A stretch of 64,000 nucleotides of DNA from the NCBI RefSeq assembly GCF_000240165.1, contig NC_017586.1, forward strand, positions 4,911,228 through 4,975,227. The letters are read 5' to 3'. This DNA is from Streptantibioticus cattleyicolor NRRL 8057 = DSM 46488. GTDB taxonomy: Bacteria > Actinomycetota > Actinomycetes > Streptomycetales > Streptomycetaceae. The notes under the pieces are model-generated. The model searched no databases, was not told the DNA's origin, and saw nothing but the letters and a program-made list of their open reading frames with translations. This document shows, in pieces, positions 6,988 to 41,671 of this stretch; the stretch's first letter is position 1; every line of letters begins with the position of its first letter. Made by a program: the position numbers and the translations under genes.

Positions 6988-9734
6988 GCGCATCCCGGGA
7001 AGCCGCCCCGACCACCCCCCCACCGCCCAACCTCCCCCACGTCCCGCACGTCCCCCACGTCAGACGCCCCCTCGAACCCATGCCCCACCCCGCCGGGCCG
7101 ACTGCGGTGACGGACGCGGAACGTGACGGCGCGCCGGGCGGTGCCGACGACGCGGCCCCGCAAGGGGACGGGAGCGCCGTTCCGCGCGGCGAGGGCGACG
7201 CCACGGCCCCGGAGGGGCGTTCGGGCGGGGCCACGGCCTCGCAAGGGGAACCGGGCGGGGTCGCCGTCCCGCGCAGCGGAGCCGACACGTCGCTCGGCGG
7301 GGACGAGGACACCGTTCCCCCCGGGCCTTCGGGCGGGGCCGCCGGCACCGGCGGGATCCCGCTCCCGCGTACCGGGGCGAACGCGGCCCAAGACGTTGGC
7401 GCCGACACGGTCCCGCAGACGTACTCGGGCGAGGGCGCCGACCCGGGCACCGGGGGCAACGCATCGCACGAGGGGGACGGGGGCGATGACACCGCCCCAT
7501 CCGCCCGTTCGGGCGGGGCCGCCGACGCCGGCCGGATCCCGCTCCCGCGTACCGGGGCGAACACGGCCCACGACGTCGGCGCCGGCACGGCCCGACCCGG
7601 GCCCTCGGGCGGGACCGTCGACGCCGCCGACACCGGCGGGGCCGAAGGCGCGGCCCTGGACGCCGTCCCGCGCACCGGGGCCGACACACCTCTCGGCGGG
7701 GACCAGGACACCGTCCCCCCCGGGCCCTCGGGCGGGGCCGCCGACACCGGCGGGGCCGAAGGCGCGGCCCTGGACGCCGTCCCGCGCCCCGGGGCCGACA
7801 CACCGCTCGGCGGGGACGAGGACACCGTCCCCCCCGGGCCCTCGGGCGGGGCCGCGCTTCCGGGTACCGGCACCGGCGTGGCCCACGACGCGGGCCGGGG
7901 AACGGCCCGGCCCGGGCCCTCGGGCGGGGCCGTCGACACCGGCGGGGGGCACCACACCGTTTCCGCGGCCATTTCGCGGAACCCCCAGCCGGCGCTCCAT
8001 CCGCTCGACCACTCCGACCCCTACCGCGCGGCCGACGCCGTCGGGGTGGACAACCTGCTGCGCTGCTGGGTGCGGGAGACCGGGGCGGTGCCGGGGGCCG
8101 ACGGGGTGCTGCGGATCCGGCTGGGCACCGGCGGCGCGGTGCTGCGGACCCGGGTGACCTACTGGTCCGAGGCGGGGCACCACCGCTTCGGCCCGGTCGC
8201 CGTGGAGCCCGCGGATCCGGACGCCCCCGCCCTCGACTCCGTCACCCTCGCCTGCCTGCTCGCCCGCGAGGCCGGCACCGGCAGCGCCGAGACCGCCGAC
8301 CTCGCGGCCCGGGTCGCCGACTCCGTCCGCCACACCGCGCGCTTCCTCGGCGAACGCCGGACGCACCCGGGGCCGCCGCCCGGCACCACCCCGTTCCTCG
8401 ACGGCGAGCAGGCGCTGCTCACCGGCCACCCGCTGCATCCGGCGCCCAAGAGCCGCCAAGGGCTGCGCGACGGTGAAGTCGCCCGGTTCTCCCCGGAGTC
8501 GCGCGGCTCCTTCCCGTTGCACTGGCTCGCGGTCCACCGCTCGGTCGCGGCCGGCGACTCCGGCTGGACCGAACGCGGCCGGCCGGTCCCCGCCGACCTG
8601 CTCACCGCCCGGCTGGCCGGCCCCGGCCTCGCGCTGCCGCCGGACACCGTGGCGCTGCCGCTGCACCCCTGGCAGGCCGCCGACCTCGCCGACCGCCCCG
8701 CCGTACGACGGCTCCTCGACGCCGGGCTCCTGCACGACCTCGGCCCGCACGGGGAACCGTGGCACCCCACGTCCTCGGTACGCACCGTCTACCGGGCGGA
8801 CGCCCCCGCCATGCTCAAGCTGTCGCTGGGGCTGCGCATCACCAACTCCCGCCGGGAGAACCTCCGCAAGGAGCTGTGGCGCGGCGCCGAGGTGCACCGC
8901 CTGCTGCGCGGCGGACTCGCCCGGCAGTGGCACGCCGTCCACCCCCGCTTCGACATCGTGCGCGACCCGGCCTGGCTCGCCGTCGACGACCCCGACGGCC
9001 ACCCGGTACCCGGACTCGACGTCGTGCTGCGGCACAACGCCGTGGGCCCCGGCGCCGACATCGTCTGCGTCGCCGGGCTCACCGCGCCCCGCCCGACCGG
9101 GCCCGGACGGCCCGCGTGCTCCCGGCTCGCCGGACTCCTCGGCCGGCTCACCGCCCGTACCGGACGCCCCGCCGCCGCGGTCGCCGTGGAGTGGTTCCTG
9201 CGCTACCTGGAAGCCGTGGTCCGCCCCGTGCTCTGGCTCGACGGCGAGGCCGGCGTCGCCCTGGAGGCCCACCAGCAGAACACCCTGGTCGAACTGGACG
9301 GGGACGGCTGGCCCGTCGGCGGCCGTTACCGCGACAACCAGGGCTACTACTTCCGCGAGTCGCACCGCGCCGGCCTCACCGCCCGGCTGCCGGAGATCGG
9401 CCGGCGCAGCGAGACCTTCGTGGCCGACCCGGTCGCCGACGAACGCTTCGGCTACTACCTCGGCGTCAACAACGTCCTCGGGCTGATCGGCGCGCTGGGC
9501 GCCGAACGCCTCGCCGACGAGCGGCTGTTGCTGGCCGCCTGCCGCCGCTTCCTGGCCGACGCCGCCGCCACCGGCCGCTCCGCCCTCCCCGACCACCTGC
9601 TGAGCAGCCCCACCCTGCGCTGCAAGGCCAACCTGCTCACCCGCCTGCACGGCCTGGACGAACTCGTCGGGCCGGTCGACACCCAGTCCGTCTACGTCAC
9701 CGTTCCCAACCCGCTGGCCACGCCCGTGGCGTGA
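6984..9734 (+). CDS. NRPS-independent siderophore synthetase (IucA/IucC family) with low-complexity N-terminal extension
   Basis: The conserved synthetase begins at about residue 333 (NPQPALHPLD) of a 916-residue ORF. It ligates a carboxylic acid, classically citrate, to an amine through an acyl-adenylate. Family motifs are present: GHPLHPAPKSR in the ATP/substrate site, LPLHPWQ, KLSLGLRITNSRREN, and the HQQN segment (EAHQQNTLVELDGDG) of the C-terminal FhuF-like part. The first roughly 330 residues are a Gly/Ala/Pro/Asp-rich low-complexity tract built from degenerate repeats, including a nearly perfect 38-residue tandem pair. Typical IucA/IucC proteins are about 580-620 residues, so this tract is an extra. 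The ATG at 6984 has only a weak GGAG upstream. No in-frame ATG lies between the tract and the core, so a shorter true protein would need a GTG or TTG start. Confidence 0.87.
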   Translation: MSASREAAPTTPPPPNLPHVPHVPHVRRPLEPMPHPAGPTAVTDAERDGAPGGADDAAPQGDGSAVPRGEGDATAPEGRSGGATASQGEPGGVAVPRSGADTSLGGDEDTVPPGPSGGAAGTGGIPLPRTGANAAQDVGADTVPQTYSGEGADPGTGGNASHEGDGGDDTAPSARSGGAADAGRIPLPRTGANTAHDVGAGTARPGPSGGTVDAADTGGAEGAALDAVPRTGADTPLGGDQDTVPPGPSGGAADTGGAEGAALDAVPRPGADTPLGGDEDTVPPGPSGGAALPGTGTGVAHDAGRGTARPGPSGGAVDTGGGHHTVSAAISRNPQPALHPLDHSDPYRAADAVGVDNLLRCWVRETGAVPGADGVLRIRLGTGGAVLRTRVTYWSEAGHHRFGPVAVEPADPDAPALDSVTLACLLAREAGTGSAETADLAARVADSVRHTARFLGERRTHPGPPPGTTPFLDGEQALLTGHPLHPAPKSRQGLRDGEVARFSPESRGSFPLHWLAVHRSVAAGDSGWTERGRPVPADLLTARLAGPGLALPPDTVALPLHPWQAADLADRPAVRRLLDAGLLHDLGPHGEPWHPTSSVRTVYRADAPAMLKLSLGLRITNSRRENLRKELWRGAEVHRLLRGGLARQWHAVHPRFDIVRDPAWLAVDDPDGHPVPGLDVVLRHNAVGPGADIVCVAGLTAPRPTGPGRPACSRLAGLLGRLTARTGRPAAAVAVEWFLRYLEAVVRPVLWLDGEAGVALEAHQQNTLVELDGDGWPVGGRYRDNQGYYFRESHRAGLTARLPEIGRRSETFVADPVADERFGYYLGVNNVLGLIGALGAERLADERLLLAACRRFLADAAATGRSALPDHLLSSPTLRCKANLLTRLHGLDELVGPVDTQSVYVTVPNPLATPVA
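7627..7854 (+). repeat. 114-bp tandem direct repeat inside the siderophore synthetase gene
   Basis: Bases 7627-7740 and 7741-7854 are adjacent copies that differ at only three positions by eye. The unit is 38 codons, so the reading frame is kept. More diverged relatives of the same unit occur around 7273-7420 and 7515-7600, all sharing the pieces GGDEDTVPPGPSGGAA and LPRTGAN. The tract looks like an actively expanding coding minisatellite. Confidence 0.9.
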
Positions 9735-23918: not shown

Positions 23919-24323
23919 TCAGTAGGACTGCAACTCGATGAGGTTGCCCTCGGGGTCACGCAGATGCGCGGTGCGCAGCCCCGGCCCCCACTCCGGGCGG
24001 TCCTGCGGGGCGGCCACCACGGTGGCGCCGTGGGCGGCGAGCCGGGCGGCGGCGTCGTCGGTGTCCGCCACGCGCAGCACGAGCATGCCGGTGTCCTGCG
24101 CGGCGGCGTGTTCCGGCAGCGAGTCGGTGCCGACGATCCTGACGATGTTCTCCCGCGCGAAGATCACCAGGACCGCCTGGCCGTCCAGGTCCCAGTTGGC
24201 GTACCTGGCCTCGGGCACCACCTTGACCGGCTCGATGCCGTGCAGCGCGCGGAGCGCGGCGGTCCAGAAACGGAGCGAGGTGTCGAAGTCGCGGACGAGG
24301 AGCCGCGGATGGAGGGCGTCCAT
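23919..24323 (-). CDS. VOC/glyoxalase-family protein
   Basis: A 134-residue vicinal-oxygen-chelate protein with two beta-alpha-beta-beta-beta repeats: LHPRLLVRDFDTSLRFW at the start and MLVLRVADTDDAAARLAAHG in the second half. It ends HLRDPEGNLIELQSY, the usual C-terminal signature with the metal-ligand Glu in NLIELQ. Function cannot be deduced beyond a possible small-molecule dioxygenase, lyase, or antibiotic-binding role. The ATG at 24323 has no good ribosome site, so this may be a leaderless or weakly translated message. It is divergent from the DUF4937 gene, with 86 bases between starts. Confidence 0.83.
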   Translation of the reverse strand: MDALHPRLLVRDFDTSLRFWTAALRALHGIEPVKVVPEARYANWDLDGQAVLVIFARENIVRIVGTDSLPEHAAAQDTGMLVLRVADTDDAAARLAAHGATVVAAPQDRPEWGPGLRTAHLRDPEGNLIELQSY

Positions 24324-24397
24324 GCCGTGATCGTACGAGCTTGCGGGCCACGGGAGTTGACCGGGTGACGGAAGCGGAGGGCGCCACGGCACGGCCA

Positions 24398-24403
24398 TAG
24401 TAT
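24398..24403 (+). promoter_or_regulatory. -10 element for a leaderless transcript
   Basis: TAGTAT ends seven bases before the GTG at 24410. That places the transcription start at or next to the start codon, and there is no ribosome site between. No good -35 is seen at the standard distance. Confidence 0.45.
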
Positions 24404-24409
24404 GGCGCG

Positions 24410-25015
24410 GTGCTGGTGAAGTGGATTCGCTGTCGCGTCACGGACCGGACCGGTTTCGAACGCGGACAGCGCGAATGGGCGGCGCTCTTCGGCGAGCCCG
24501 GGTTCCGGGGGCAGGGCGGCGGCTGGGGCCGCGGCCGGCCGGACGAGGCGCACATCTTCTGCTTCTGGGAGAACCGGTCGTACTACGACATGTTCATGGC
24601 CGGTCCGCACGACGGCATAGCCATGGCCCAGGCCGGCACCTACGACCGGATGGACGTGCGCCTCTTCGAGCAGCGCCAGGAGGTGAAGATCGGCTTCCGC
24701 GCCGTCTTCTCCGACGCCGACCTGGTGCGGGCGGCCCACTGCCGCGTCCGGCCGTCCCAGGTGGAACACTTCATGCTGATGCAGGAGAAGGTGTGGAACC
24801 CGGCCATGGCCGGCTCGCCCGGAATGCTGCGGGGGATCTTCGCCGAGGGCGCCGGGAGCGAGTTCCTGGTGCTGTCGATGTGGGATTCCGCCGCCGAGCG
24901 GGCCAAGTACCGTGACGCGGCCGTCGGCCGGCTGGAGGAACGCGCCGGACTCGGCGAGGACGTGTTGTCGGTGGCGGGTGAGATCGTGGACGTGGTGCAG
25001 GCGTGGACGGTGTGA
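24410..25015 (+). CDS. DUF4937 (YdbC-like) domain protein
   Basis: A 201-residue soluble protein that looks like the DUF4937/YdbC family, made of two related ferredoxin-like (ABM-type) halves. Residues 1-100 contain KWIRCRV and ENRSYYDMFMAGPHDGIA. Residues 110-200 contain the second half, with EVWNP-like EKVWNPAMAGSPGMLRG and LVLSMWDSAAERAKYRD. Such folds often bind small aromatic or haem-like molecules as monooxygenases, but no function is established for this family as far as I know. The start GTG lies seven bases after a TAGTAT element. Its stop overlaps the next gene's GTG (GTGA at 25012-25015), suggesting coupled translation with the sigma-factor-like gene. Confidence 0.75.
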   Translation: MLVKWIRCRVTDRTGFERGQREWAALFGEPGFRGQGGGWGRGRPDEAHIFCFWENRSYYDMFMAGPHDGIAMAQAGTYDRMDVRLFEQRQEVKIGFRAVFSDADLVRAAHCRVRPSQVEHFMLMQEKVWNPAMAGSPGMLRGIFAEGAGSEFLVLSMWDSAAERAKYRDAAVGRLEERAGLGEDVLSVAGEIVDVVQAWTV

Positions 25016-26250
25016 GCGGTACGTCCGACGGCCCAGGCATAGCCAACGGCGCCCCGCAGGCCGTGGCGGGGGTGTCGTCGGCTGGGCGCGGTGGATCGGG
25101 TTCCGTTGCGGGAACACCGTTGGCCGGGGCTGGTGGGTCGGTTCCCGCTGTGGGGGCGTCGTCGGCGGGGGCTGGGGGGATGGGTCCCGTCGCGGGGGTG
25201 TCGTCGGCGGGGGCTGGTGGGCCGGATTCCGCTGCGGACGCGTTGCGGGCCGGGGAGGATCGGCCGGGTTCCGTTGCGAGGACATCGGCGACCAGGGCAG
25301 ACCGGCCGGGTCCCGTCGCGGGCGCGTCGTCGGCCGGGGACGGCGGTTCGGATCCGGCCCGGCCGGGGCCGGGTGGGGGCGCGCTGCCGGGTGAGGGCGG
25401 CTCGCCAGGGCGCTTCGCGCTCGCCTACCTCCTGCTGGGCGCGGCCTCCTCGGCCGAGGAGGTGCTGGCCCGCGTGCCCGGCGGGGCGCCCGCCGTGACG
25501 GAGGGGCGTGGGCCGGAAGGCGCGGTGGTCGGGGCCTGCCTGGACGCTCTGGCGTCGGCCCGGTCACGTCACGAGGCGTACGTCGGCCCGTGGCTGCCGG
25601 AGCCGGTGCTCACCGTGGACGGGCCGTTCGGCCCGCTGGAGGACCCCGCGCTGCGGGAGTCGGTCTCGCTGCCGTGGCTGGTGCGGCTGGAACGGCTGAC
25701 CCCGGCCGAGCGGGCCGTCCTGGTGCTCCACGAGACGTACGGCCGGCCGCTGCCGGAGATCGCCGGCCTGCTCCGGACGACGCCGCAGGGGTGCGAGGGT
25801 TTGCTGCGCAGCGCCCGGCAGCGTACCGGGCTGCCCCGCGTCCGGCACGAGACGGGGTGGGACGAACGGCGGCGGGTTCTGGAGGAGTTCCTCGCGGCGG
25901 CGGTCGACGGCGACCTGGCCGGCGCGGCCGAGTTCCTCTCCCAGGACGTCGTGGCCTGGGCGGACGGCGGCGGAGTGATAGACGGCGCGGCCCGCCGCCC
26001 GGTCCTGGGCGCCGAGAAGGCGGCCCGCTACGTCTCCGGGGTGCTCGCCCGGGCCCCGCGAAGCGTCCTGGAGCTTTCGGTGGCCGAGGTCAACAGCGAG
26101 CCCTCGGCCGTCGCGGTGCTCGGCACCGCGGTGGTCGGGGTGCTGGTGCCGGAGTTCGGCCCCGACGGCATCGTGGGGCTGCGCAACGTCCTCAACCCGC
26201 ACAAGCTGGAGTTCATCGGCCGCCAGTGGGCCCGGCTCCCCACCGGGTAG
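25012..26250 (+). CDS. Degenerate ECF41-type sigma factor with SnoaL-like C-terminus
   Basis: The C-terminal two-thirds is clearly an ECF41 (SigJ-like) sigma factor. It has the linker motif YVGPWLPEP at about residue 190, a region 4 helix-turn-helix (LTPAERAVLVLHETYGRPLPEIA, about 229-255), and a SnoaL-like extension with DGGGV at about 323 and NPHKLEFI near the end, matching the family motifs DGGGK and NPDKV. Region 2, which binds core polymerase and the -10 element, is reduced to RFALAYLLLGAASSAEEVLARV plus a short helix. The usual DAWLRW segment is missing. Residues 1-135 are instead a Gly/Ala/Ser low-complexity tract of VAGVSSAGAGG-like units. The GTG at 25012 overlaps the upstream stop; a GTG at 25003 is equally open. 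Whether it still works as a sigma factor is doubtful. Confidence 0.8.
   Translation: MSGTSDGPGIANGAPQAVAGVSSAGRGGSGSVAGTPLAGAGGSVPAVGASSAGAGGMGPVAGVSSAGAGGPDSAADALRAGEDRPGSVARTSATRADRPGPVAGASSAGDGGSDPARPGPGGGALPGEGGSPGRFALAYLLLGAASSAEEVLARVPGGAPAVTEGRGPEGAVVGACLDALASARSRHEAYVGPWLPEPVLTVDGPFGPLEDPALRESVSLPWLVRLERLTPAERAVLVLHETYGRPLPEIAGLLRTTPQGCEGLLRSARQRTGLPRVRHETGWDERRRVLEEFLAAAVDGDLAGAAEFLSQDVVAWADGGGVIDGAARRPVLGAEKAARYVSGVLARAPRSVLELSVAEVNSEPSAVAVLGTAVVGVLVPEFGPDGIVGLRNVLNPHKLEFIGRQWARLPTG
25060..25400 (+). repeat. Low-complexity coding repeat in the ECF41-like gene
   Basis: Degenerate units of about 36-60 bases encode GAGG/VSSAG/PVAG blocks. Third codon positions use many A and T bases (GGT, GCT, GTT, GGA), unlike the nearly all-GC third positions of neighbouring genes. 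This suggests repeat expansion under weak selection. Boundaries are approximate. Confidence 0.6.
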
Positions 26251-26272: not shown

Positions 26273-26299
26273 TGTCACATTCCGGCGGCCCCGTCTGTC
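26273..26299 (+). promoter_or_regulatory. ECF41-type promoter candidate upstream of the NAD(P)-binding gene
   Basis: TGTCACA at 26273-26279 equals the -35 motif known for ECF41 sigma factors. CGTC (26292-26295) and TGTC (26296-26299) lie 12 and 16 bases downstream; the family -10 motif is CGTC. The site sits 60 bases before the start of the next gene and directly after the sigma gene. Confidence 0.55.
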
Positions 26300-26338: not shown

Positions 26339-27163
26339 ATGAACGACACCACCTTGGTCACCGGCGGCACCGGGGTGCTGGGCACCGCACTGGTGGCACG
26401 GCTGCGCGCGGCGGGCCGCCCGGTACGGGTGCTCAGCCGCCGTCCGCCCGCCCCCGACGCCGTCCCGCTCGAGGGCACCGAGTGGGCGGTGGGCGACCTG
26501 ACCAGCGGGGCGGGACTGGCCGCGGCGCTGGAGGGAGTCGGCACCGTGGTGCACTGCGCGACCGACAGCCGGCGCTGGAAGAACGATCCCGTCGCGGCCG
26601 AACGGCTCGTCGAGGCCGCCCGCGCGGCCGGTTCCCCGCACCTGGTGTACATCTCGATCGTCGGTATCGACCGGGTGCCCTTTCCCTACTACCGGGCCAA
26701 GCTCGCGGTGGAGCGGATCGTCGCCGGCTCAGGGCTGCCGTGGACCGTGCTGCGCACCACCCAGTTCCACGACCTGCTGCTGGCGGTCGCGCGGCAGTTG
26801 ACCCGGCTCCCGGTCGCCCTGGTGCCGTCCGGGGTGCGGATGCAGCCGGTGGACGTGGCCGACGTCGCCGCCCGCCTGGCCGACCTCGCCGCCGGTGCGC
26901 CGGCCGGCTGCGTCCCCGACATGGGCGGACCCGAGGTGATGACGCTCGCCGACGCCGTCCGCGCCGTGCTGCGTGCCACCGGTGGCCGCCGCCCGGTGCT
27001 CGAGGTGCCCCTGCCCGGCGGACTCGTGCGCGCCACCCGGCACGGCGGACTGCTGGCACCGGACAACCCCGCGGACGGACACCGCTTCACCGACTTCCTG
27101 GCCGAGGCGTCCTTCGACTCCCGGCGGTACGGCGCCGCGAGCCGTGGGGGAGGACAGTCGTAA
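26339..27163 (+). CDS. NAD(P)H-binding, NmrA/atypical-SDR family protein
   Basis: A 274-residue atypical short-chain dehydrogenase. The dinucleotide motif is VTGGTGVLGTAL at residues 6-17, followed by VRVLSRRP (NADP phosphate site) and GDLTSGAGLAAALEGVGTVVHCA. The core YxxxK is present in modified spacing (YYRAKLAVERI at about residue 119), as in NmrA-like reductases and NAD-dependent epimerase relatives. A ribosome site (GGAAGGA) precedes the ATG. ECF41 genes commonly lie beside carboxymuconolactone decarboxylase, oxidoreductase or epimerase genes that they activate. Position plus the TGTCACA element make this the likely target gene of the preceding factor. Substrate unknown; convergent with the tetR gene. 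Confidence 0.82.
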   Translation: MNDTTLVTGGTGVLGTALVARLRAAGRPVRVLSRRPPAPDAVPLEGTEWAVGDLTSGAGLAAALEGVGTVVHCATDSRRWKNDPVAAERLVEAARAAGSPHLVYISIVGIDRVPFPYYRAKLAVERIVAGSGLPWTVLRTTQFHDLLLAVARQLTRLPVALVPSGVRMQPVDVADVAARLADLAAGAPAGCVPDMGGPEVMTLADAVRAVLRATGGRRPVLEVPLPGGLVRATRHGGLLAPDNPADGHRFTDFLAEASFDSRRYGAASRGGGQS

Positions 27164-27839: not shown

Positions 27840-27971
27840 CGCATATTCTCAACGAGGCACGGTGGTTCGTAAATGGCTGTCGCCGACTGGCCCCGGCCGT
27901 CGGCGAACGCCGCCACCGGCGACCGTCACGCACCGGCCCGTCACGCGGGCCGCCGGCAGGGGGAGACGCGG

Positions 27972-28694
27972 ATGACCGAGCGCGTTGTGATGATCGGTGG
28001 CACGTCCGGGATCGGACTGGCCGTAGCGCAGGGCCAGTTGGCGGCGGGGCGGGAGGTCGTGGTCACCGGACGCGACGCCGCCAAGCTCGCCGCGGTGGTG
28101 GAGAGGCTGGGCGCCGGCGCTTCCGGCGAGGCGGTGGACGCCCGCGACGAGGAGGCCATGCACGCCTTCTTCGCCGGCCTCGGTGCCGTCGACCACGTCG
28201 TGGTCACCGTCACCGGTCACAGCGCGGCCGGAGCCTTCCGCGACCTCACGGCGGACGCGCTGCGCAGCGCCGGCGAGGGCAAGCTGATAGCCCAGACGAT
28301 CGCCGCCCAGGCCGCGTTGAAGGTGTTGCGCGCGGACGGTTCGCTGACCTTCGTCACCGCGGGCTCCGCCGGTGCCGCCAGGCCGGGCACCGCGGGGCTG
28401 GCCGCGGTCAACGCGGCGGTGGAGGCCATGGTTCCGGTCCTCGCCGTCGAGCTGGCCCCGGCACGGGTCAACGCCGTCTCGCCCGGCATCATCGACACCC
28501 CGTGGTGGGACTGGATGGACGCCGAGACGCGGCAGCAGACGTTCGAGAACTACGCCCGGGCCACCCCGGTCGGCCGGGTGGGTCGCGCCGAGGACGTCGC
28601 CGAGGCGATCGGCTACCTCATCGGGGCCGGCTTCGTCTCCGGTGTCGTGCTCGGCGTCGACGGCGGCTCACGGCACCGCCCGACCGCCCTGTGA
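27972..28694 (+). CDS. Short-chain dehydrogenase-like protein lacking the catalytic Tyr-Lys
   Basis: A 240-residue classical SDR fold. It has the dinucleotide motif GGTSGIGLAVA at about residues 7-17, TGRD for NADP preference, the NAG-equivalent VTVTGHSAAG, the strand LTFVTAGSAG, and PGIIDTPWW after the active site. Where family members carry YxxxK, this protein reads LAAVN: Leu143 and Asn147. Both catalytic residues are therefore missing, and it may be a binding or regulatory protein, or use another mechanism. The ATG at 27972 follows GGGGGAG; the frame is open to 27873. It is divergent from tetR and probably controlled by it. Confidence 0.8.
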   Translation: MTERVVMIGGTSGIGLAVAQGQLAAGREVVVTGRDAAKLAAVVERLGAGASGEAVDARDEEAMHAFFAGLGAVDHVVVTVTGHSAAGAFRDLTADALRSAGEGKLIAQTIAAQAALKVLRADGSLTFVTAGSAGAARPGTAGLAAVNAAVEAMVPVLAVELAPARVNAVSPGIIDTPWWDWMDAETRQQTFENYARATPVGRVGRAEDVAEAIGYLIGAGFVSGVVLGVDGGSRHRPTAL

Positions 28695-40117: not shown

Positions 40118-41671
40118 GTGTCGGCCAGCACATCCCGTACGCTCCCGCCGGAGATCACCGAATCCGAGTCTCTGATGGCGCTCATCGAGCGGGGTAAGGC
40201 TCAGGGCCAGATCGCAGGCGACGACGTACGTCGGGCCTTCGAGGCGGACCAGATTCCGGCAACCCAGTGGAAGAACGTCCTGCGCAGCCTCAACCAGGTC
40301 CTCGACGAGGAGGGTGTGACGCTGATGGTCAGTGCCGCGGAGGCGCCCAAGCGCACCCGAAAGAGCGTCGCAGCCAAGAGCCCCGCCAAGCGTGCCGCCG
40401 CCAAGCCCGTCGCCACCACCACGGTGACCAAGCGGACCGCGGCGGCCAAGACCGTCGCCGCGCCGGCCGCCACCGCCGAGGTCCCGTCGGACGCGGGCGA
40501 GGAGACCGCCCCCGCCGCCAAGAAGACCGCTCCCGCCAAGAAGACCGTGGCCAAGAAGGCGGCGGCCAAGAAGACCGCCGCCAAGAAGACCGTGGCGAAG
40601 AAGGGCGACGACGAGCTGCTCGTCGAGGGCGAGGACTTGCTGGAGGACGTGGCGCCCGGCAAGGGCGGCGAGCCCGGGCCGGACCAGCCGGAGTCCGAGG
40701 GCTTCGTGCTCTCCGACGAGGACGAGGACGACGCCCCGGCGCAGCAGGTGGCCGCCGCCGGAGCCACCGCCGACCCGGTCAAGGACTACCTCAAGCAGAT
40801 CGGCAAGGTCCCCCTGCTCAACGCCGAGCAGGAGGTCGAGCTGGCCAAGCGCATCGAGGCCGGTCTCTTCGCCGAGGACAAGCTCTCCTCCGCCGACAAG
40901 CTGGCCCCCAAGCTCCAGCGCGAGCTGGAGATCATCGCCGAGGACGGCCGCCGCGCCAAGAACCACCTGCTGGAGGCCAACCTCCGACTGGTGGTCTCGC
41001 TGGCCAAGCGCTACACCGGCCGCGGCATGCTCTTCCTGGACCTGATCCAGGAGGGCAACCTGGGCCTGATCCGCGCGGTGGAGAAGTTCGACTACACCAA
41101 GGGCTACAAGTTCTCCACGTACGCCACCTGGTGGATCCGGCAGGCGATCACCCGTGCCATGGCCGACCAGGCGCGCACCATCCGCATCCCGGTGCACATG
41201 GTCGAGGTCATCAACAAGCTCGCCCGTGTGCAGCGCCAGATGCTCCAGGACCTGGGCCGCGAGCCCACCCCGGAGGAGCTGGCCAAGGAGCTCGACATGA
41301 CCCCGGAGAAGGTTATCGAGGTCCAGAAGTACGGCCGCGAGCCCATCTCGCTGCACACCCCGCTCGGCGAGGACGGCGACAGCGAGTTCGGTGACCTCAT
41401 CGAGGACTCCGAGGCCGTGGTCCCGGCCGACGCGGTCAGCTTCACCCTGTTGCAGGAGCAGCTCCACTCCGTCCTGGACACCCTCTCCGAGCGCGAGGCG
41501 GGCGTGGTCTCCATGCGCTTCGGCCTCACCGACGGCCAGCCCAAGACGCTGGACGAGATCGGCAAGGTCTACGGGGTCACCCGGGAGCGGATCCGGCAGA
41601 TCGAGTCCAAGACCATGTCCAAGCTGCGCCACCCGTCCCGGTCCCAGGTCCTCCGCGACTACCTGGACTGA
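40118..41671 (+). CDS. hrdB: Principal RNA polymerase sigma factor HrdB
   Basis: The essential sigma-70 of Streptomyces, 517 residues. The first 60 residues are a region-1.1-like segment ([34 protein letters not shown]). Residues about 90-170 are a Lys/Ala repeat tract ([14 protein letters not shown]) typical of HrdB. Region 1.2 begins [22 protein letters not shown], region 2 contains [21 protein letters not shown], region 3 contains [19 protein letters not shown], and region 4 contains [20 protein letters not shown], ending QVLRDYLD. The GTG at 40118 has GAGAGG upstream and gives the known N-terminus [12 protein letters not shown]. It lies downstream of whiH and is followed by a terminator. 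Confidence 0.98.

Follow-up and report, generated by a model that had tools for sequence, protein, structure and literature searches.

The window, which is the whole stretch of 64,000 nucleotides of Streptantibioticus cattleyicolor NRRL 8057 that was analysed, was found to contain a gene of ECF41 type with an eroded sigma domain at 25003–26250 on the forward strand. A DUF4937 (NIPSNAP-like) gene was present on its 5′ side (24410–25015, forward strand; PF16291, E = 1.2e-31), and its 3′ side contained a predicted ECF41-type promoter, TGTCACA-N16-TGTC (26273–26299, forward strand), followed by an NmrA-like/NAD(P)-binding gene (26339–27163, forward strand; PF13460, E = 7e-21 and PF05368, E = 4e-13), the presumed ancestral ECF41 target. 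The comparison covered 394 genomes of the family, in which the window genus was represented by one genome, the sister genus g13 by three genomes and the genus g6 by 35 genomes, the last searched at E ≤ 1e-30, a threshold that weaker remnants may have escaped. The open reading frame at 25012–26250 (forward strand) was real and its frame was unbroken. The encoded protein would be 415 amino acids long from the GTG codon at 25003 and 412 amino acids long from the GTG codon at 25012. Position 25003 was occupied by GTG, ATG or TTG in all nine syntenic copies, and the codon matching 25012 was CTG in 5/5 of the g6 copies, which makes GTG at 25003 the more likely start on comparison of the copies. Whichever of the two codons is used, the sigma-like gene begins before the DUF4937 gene has ended and overlaps its stop codon (25013–25015). 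The score of the window protein, the only protein scored, against TIGR02957 (NCBIfam) was 174 bits and did not reach the cut-off of 323.

An antisense open frame of 467 amino acids (24164–25567, reverse strand) spanned the DUF4937 gene and the repeat of the sigma-like gene; several frames are open there from the G+C content, so that openness alone is no coding evidence. Further downstream, a short-chain dehydrogenase gene (27873–28694, forward strand), situated between a TetR and an ADP-ribosylglycohydrolase gene, had no match in the g13 and g6 loci retrieved. Elsewhere in the window, a 114-bp tandem duplication of two copies with a 97% match was present at 7623–7855, and repeats of 15 and 30 bp were present at 40503–40603, where one putative frame would be Lys/Ala-rich (AKKT-type), as in histone-like tails.

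The N-terminus of the sigma-like protein (25003–25410, forward strand) was a low-complexity stretch of 136 residues before RFALAY, of which 61% were Gly, Ala or Ser. It was devoid of a codon-position signature, the GC content at the three codon positions being 0.787, 0.794 and 0.765, respectively, against 0.818, 0.532 and 0.950 in the rest of the gene. A 42-bp tandem repeat (25066–25339, forward strand), with 6.5 copies, 69% matches and a unit of about VAGVSSAGAGGSDP, was found within it; elsewhere in the genome, one further match of 30 bp was found among the 40 of 295 candidates scored. The initial annotation had described a Gly/Ala/Ser repeat of 130 residues with an unusual third-codon composition, and both observations were borne out. 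The N-termini of eight syntenic orthologues were shorter, about 30–50 residues, so that the N-terminus of the window protein probably arose by local expansion of a linker.

For the state of the sigma domains, an alignment (A1) of 55 of 57 rows was used, from which L005 and L006 were excluded, and a residue was called conserved when 80% or more of 48 intact relatives had it; this reference excluded L007 (another family), L045 (partial) and the syntenic L025, L028 and L033. The linker motif GPWLPEP (25585–25605, forward strand) was intact, with 6/6 conserved residues of WLPEP, and the SnoaL/NTF2-like C-terminal extension (25858–26250, forward strand) kept 21/24 together with its DGGG and NPHKL motifs. 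The SnoaL_2 match of this extension was 18 bits, under the Pfam cut-off of 27, as it was likewise under the cut-off in two of the three g13 copies. Region 4 (25657–25827, forward strand; PF08281, 26.3 bits, just over the cut-off of 25.7) kept 15/19 conserved residues in region 4.1 and 5/9 in region 4.2. The recognition helix of region 4.2 was damaged, with TPQGCEGLLRSA against the majority SEANCRQLYRRA, and the R-Q pair of this -35 recognition helix, each residue of which was present in 47/48 intact relatives, was E-G in the window. In g6 the Q of the pair was lost in 5/5 copies and the R in two. Linker, region 4 and extension had all been described as intact; this holds for the linker and the SnoaL domain, but for region 4 it fails at the recognition helix.

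Region 2 (25411–25584, forward strand) consisted of short 2.1 and 2.2 helices, a low-confidence loop and a 2.3–2.4 helix, and the conserved residues kept were 4/7 in region 2.1, 3/8 in region 2.2 and 5/12 in regions 2.3–2.4. Regions 2.2–2.4 were six residues shorter than in g13, in agreement with the shortened region 2 noted beforehand; region 2 was trimmed and mutated, not absent. Pfam Sigma70_r2 (E ≤ 0.01) matched 49/55 aligned relatives. In scans of single sequences it matched 3/3 g13 copies but neither the window nor the five g6 copies, which together account for the six relatives without a match; among the g6 copies, G074 showed a sub-threshold match (E = 0.096). The A-E-D-x-V-Q stretch of region 2.2 contained a D and a Q that were invariant in 48/48 intact relatives. 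In the window the D was substituted by E and the Q by A, followed by an alignment gap, and the W-L of region 2.3 was also lost. The invariant D was changed in 6/6 eroded copies (to E in four) and the Q in 5/6. We take these two positions to be the equivalents of those through which sigma-70 contacts the beta-prime coiled coil. The change of two residues that are otherwise invariant supports a loss of the core-binding surface.

An assembly or sequencing error could mask an intact region 2, as the stretch is very G+C-rich and lies after the repeat. The missing helix was sought by eye in the three forward frames of 25342–25611, and none was seen in them; eroded versions were also present in five other genomes, and the assembly consists of two contigs and is 100% complete. 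An error of this kind, which the initial annotation had kept in view, is thus extremely improbable.

The AlphaFold2 model of the core, built with all relatives aligned, had a mean pLDDT of 89 and contained region-2 helices at residues 6–16, 19–28 and 42–62, with the loop between the last two helices badly placed (mean pLDDT of 51 for block 31–40); the intact relatives in this alignment pull the model toward three region-2 helices. With the six eroded sequences only, the mean pLDDT was 77 and that of block 31–40 was 45, and the helices stayed. The all-relatives model matched SigJ (5xe7) with Z 24.0 and rmsd 3.2 over 260 aligned residues, and, as the second structural match, SigG1 (7qh5) with Z 22.8 and rmsd 3.2 over 262 residues. 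The sigma part of PhyR gave Z 8.5–11.8, a range that may be common for helical bundles according to a warning of the tool. Since three region-2 helices are retained in both models, some residual core binding may persist. An unusual but working sigma factor, with a trimmed region 2 that still binds core, if weakly, and with compensation by the low-complexity tail or by a partner, would agree with the helices predicted even from the eroded-only alignment and with the TGTCACA-N16-TGTC kept at 26273. The changed D and Q of region 2.2, the lost W-L of region 2.3 and the damaged -35 helix speak against it, and the evidence from the g6 loci and from promoters given below makes it quite improbable.

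A match to the protein at E ≤ 1e-50 was found in 52/394 genomes of the family, whereas the DUF4937 gene was present in 293/394. Both were near each other in three g13 and five g6 genomes only, among 62 re-checked loci that include some genomes twice. The DUF4937 protein was about 84% identical to that of the window in g13 and 64–68% identical in the five g6 sigma-bearing loci. In 3/3 g13 genomes the order was DUF4937 gene, intact sigma and NmrA-like gene (about 65% identical), and in 5/35 g6 genomes (E ≤ 1e-30) an eroded sigma was present at the DUF4937 locus. The initial annotation would have been refuted by orthologues that shared its short region 2 and were proven sigma factors; instead, the nearest ones, those of g13, had an intact region 2, and those of g6 were eroded in another way. 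No match to the NmrA-like gene was found in the stretches of 7.6–9 kb around the five eroded g6 loci, which also counts against a working sigma factor; the window keeps this gene beside its eroded sigma. Among the 28 DUF4937 loci examined from the 293 genomes with the gene (18 g6 loci were viewed downstream), six contained a full-length sigma, intact or eroded, one contained a remnant and 21 contained no detectable sigma within 1.5 kb. The remnant, directly after the DUF4937 gene in G031 of g6 (L139), was frameshifted and deleted and is a pseudogene. A near full-length NmrA-like gene was kept in five sigma-less loci, and G016 held a match of 41 residues. The remnant and the 21 loci without sigma indicate that the sigma-like protein is dispensable.

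The selection on each region was examined by pN/pS, calculated as raw NG86 proportions with no saturation correction. In two disjoint g6 pairs the ratio was 0.94 in regions 2.2–2.4, followed by 0.43 in the linker, 0.35 in SnoaL, 0.34 in region 4 and 0.09 in region 2.1, and the nonsynonymous excess of regions 2.2–2.4 over region 4 was significant (Fisher p = 3e-9). In two g13 comparisons regions 2.2–2.4 gave 0.13 and 0.20. Region 2.1, region 4 and SnoaL of g6 are thus under purifying selection while regions 2.2–2.4 are neutral, which argues that the protein has outlived its core-binding region; this neutral drift is a further point against a working sigma factor. For the window against two g13 copies, where the values also contain the constrained g13 branch, the ratios were 0.89–1.14 in regions 2.2–2.4, 0.63–1.33 in region 2.1, 0.28–0.64 in the linker, 0.57–1.01 in region 4 (1.01 against G012) and 0.53–0.62 in SnoaL. 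Since the split, the window branch has accumulated about 0.57 changes per site and that of g13 about 0.18–0.22.

Plain decay is an alternative: the gene would be a sigma factor that paralogues have rendered redundant and that is being lost, with the window copy at a late stage in which the frame is still open, ahead of pseudogene formation and deletion. The pseudogene of G031, the 21/28 DUF4937 loci without sigma within 1.5 kb, the long window branch, the ratio of 1.01 in region 4, the damaged 4.2 helix and the expanded repeat N-terminus all agree with decay. However, neutral loss should strike all regions equally, whereas g6 constrains regions 2.1, 4 and SnoaL and not 2.2–2.4; in the window, the nonsynonymous changes of SnoaL against g13 were still below the synonymous ones (p = 0.008 for one comparison and 1e-4 for another, with the g13 side common to both), and the third-position GC was 0.95 outside the repeat. 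We regard decay as a serious explanation of the whole pattern, though not the favoured one. For the window lineage, in which the constraint is weak and the evidence of retention is weaker, it is a close rival.

The nine syntenic sigma copies formed one clade (100/95), within which the sigma tree joined the window to g13 (98/69; 89/68 with 29 rows), and a single eroded clade was not rejected by this tree alone (p-AU 0.26). The DUF4937 tree of 31 rows placed the window with g13, g7, g16 and g17 (100/99) and kept its 18 g6 rows separate from this group. The patterns of erosion also differed, as the window keeps the end of region 2.4, LDALASARSRHEAYVG, which is lost in g6, whereas g6 keeps RMLGSA, which is lost in the window. 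Two independent erosions, in the window lineage and in g6, are the most likely course on these trees and patterns, a reading that is favoured rather than proven.

The promoter before the NmrA-like gene was also examined. When the intergenic stretch of the window was shuffled, TGTCACR-N15/16-NGTC was found in 3/20000 cases. TGTCACR-N16-NGTC was present before the NmrA-like gene in 3/3 g13 genomes and in 4/5 genomes with an NmrA-like gene but without a local sigma; on shuffling, the pattern of these four was held by 23, 12, 6 and 7 of 20000 (0.03–0.12%). These four genomes contained two to five ECF41-type matches elsewhere. In the fifth, G006, the pattern was absent, about 30 bases lay between the genes, and no ECF41-type match was found at E ≤ 1e-25. 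The retention of the pattern without a local sigma where other ECF41-type genes exist suggests, through a small correlation over five genomes, that another ECF41 probably serves the promoter in trans; such retention also speaks against a working local sigma factor. The window genome contained five further ECF41-type genes. One of them adjoins a carboxymuconolactone decarboxylase gene (PF02627, E = 1e-19) with a TGTCACA-N16-CGTC promoter, and its product is a candidate for the trans-acting factor. All five were situated on the 1.8-Mb contig 1 and none on the 6.3-Mb contig of the window. A genome-wide scan for the promoter pattern gave 10 sites against five for a reversed-pattern control, so single sites are weak evidence. 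We abandoned the possibility that region 2 and the -10 box of the window promoter had diverged in parallel, because TGTC at N16 lies within the published variants; the available text on ECF41 gives TGTT and CGTC as -10 boxes and TGTC among putative sites (PMC3426412).

The protein might also have become a repressor or activator that binds the -35 site with the specificity of region 4 kept. The constraint on region 4 in g6 is in favour of such a conversion, as is the letter-for-letter identity of the window and G025 over the -35 box and the spacer that precede the NmrA-like gene (TGTCACATTCCGGCGGCC). The R-Q pair of the recognition helix, however, is E-G in the window and was lost in part or whole in g6, no GTCAC box was seen in the stretch after the sigma in the five g6 loci, and the box is also kept where no local sigma exists. 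DNA binding of this kind is therefore unlikely. The initial annotation had proposed either a decaying sigma factor or a DNA- or ligand-binding regulator that no longer needs polymerase, and this is partly supported; both outcomes were seen among the orthologues, as selection in g6 and as the pseudogene of G031, and the loss of the core-binding surface agrees with it. The lost R-Q pair weakens its DNA-binding version, and a ligand-binding or folded-shell version fits better.

Our preferred reading, to which we give a probability of about 0.6, is a retired ECF41 sigma factor whose non-sigma shell has been kept in g6, with weaker constraint and possible loss in the window. The sequences show that an ECF41 gene situated between the DUF4937 and the NmrA-like gene lost the region 2.2 residues kept in intact relatives and much of regions 2.3–2.4, both in the window lineage and in g6; the likeliest start was redundancy with paralogues, followed by the loss of polymerase binding. 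Every step after the loss of the core-binding residues is what we infer. The protein would be unable to assemble a functional holoenzyme, and the promoter that it formerly served would depend on another ECF41 of the genome acting in trans. What remains, a shell of helix 2.1, the WLPEP linker, region 4 and the SnoaL pocket, is kept by selection in g6, where it would act without polymerase; our guess is that it binds a small molecule and, as a SnoaL-gated sigma look-alike, acts through contact with other proteins. In the window lineage the same protein is less constrained and may be losing its function altogether. After the loss of polymerase, the outcome would thus be either reuse of the SnoaL-centred shell, as supported in g6, or loss of the gene; the protein has probably been reused for another job in g6 and may be on its way out in the window genome. 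A more elaborate version is tentative and rather doubtful: in at least two actinobacterial lineages, an ECF41 sigma independently gave up polymerase binding and became a stable, SnoaL-gated, small-molecule-sensing look-alike that acts by protein contact. The overlap of the two genes would couple its production to that of the DUF4937 protein, and its promoter would have passed to a paralogous ECF41.

At this locus, one and the same sigma gene occurs in a natural series of deletion stages, in which it is intact, has lost its grip on polymerase with or without the target gene, is a pseudogene or is gone. Such a series shows which parts of ECF41 selection keeps after the loss of core binding, and it offers a way to test the role of the SnoaL domain by itself. 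It is also a warning that a protein detected by its region 4 alone is not necessarily a sigma factor.

A search of the open-access literature with narrow phrases on sigma factors without region 2, degenerate sigmas and sigma pseudogenes found nothing relevant. In Bacillus, the sigma functions are divided between two proteins, SigO and RsoA, and it is this division that makes the pair comparable to the present case. The hallmarks of ECF41, as given in the available text of Wecke 2012 (PMC3426412), are the WLPEP linker, the SnoaL extension, the NP-KL motif, an NmrA/epimerase-type neighbour and the TGTCACA promoter, and no anti-sigma partner is known according to the same text. The window shares with the ECF41 factors, such as SigJ of M. 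tuberculosis and Ecf41 of B. licheniformis and R. sphaeroides, the domain order, the WLPEP linker, the SnoaL extension (with NPHKL for the NPDKL-type motif), the neighbouring gene and the promoter (TGTCACA-N16-TGTC for TGTCACA-n16-CGTC). Unlike them, it has eroded regions 2.2–2.4, a damaged region 4.2, a long low-complexity N-terminus and the DUF4937 overlap, and its score lies below the TIGR02957 cut-off. The gene is ECF41 by descent, as judged from these features, but we do not file it as an ECF41 sigma factor because it has neither a functional-looking region 2 nor an intact -35 recognition helix. With the ECF56 factor SigG1 of Streptomyces tsukubaensis (7qh5) it shares an ECF core with a SnoaL_2 extension; SigG1 differs in that it contains the Pfam region 2, has the anti-sigma partner RsfG and, in the available text, is without NPDKL (PMC7730460). 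No receiver domain, a feature of PhyR, was found in the Pfam scans of the window protein. According to the available text (PMC5898713), the sigma-like domain of PhyR does not serve as a sigma factor but acts by binding an anti-sigma factor, and PhyR is thus a precedent for a sigma-like domain that is kept for protein contact alone.
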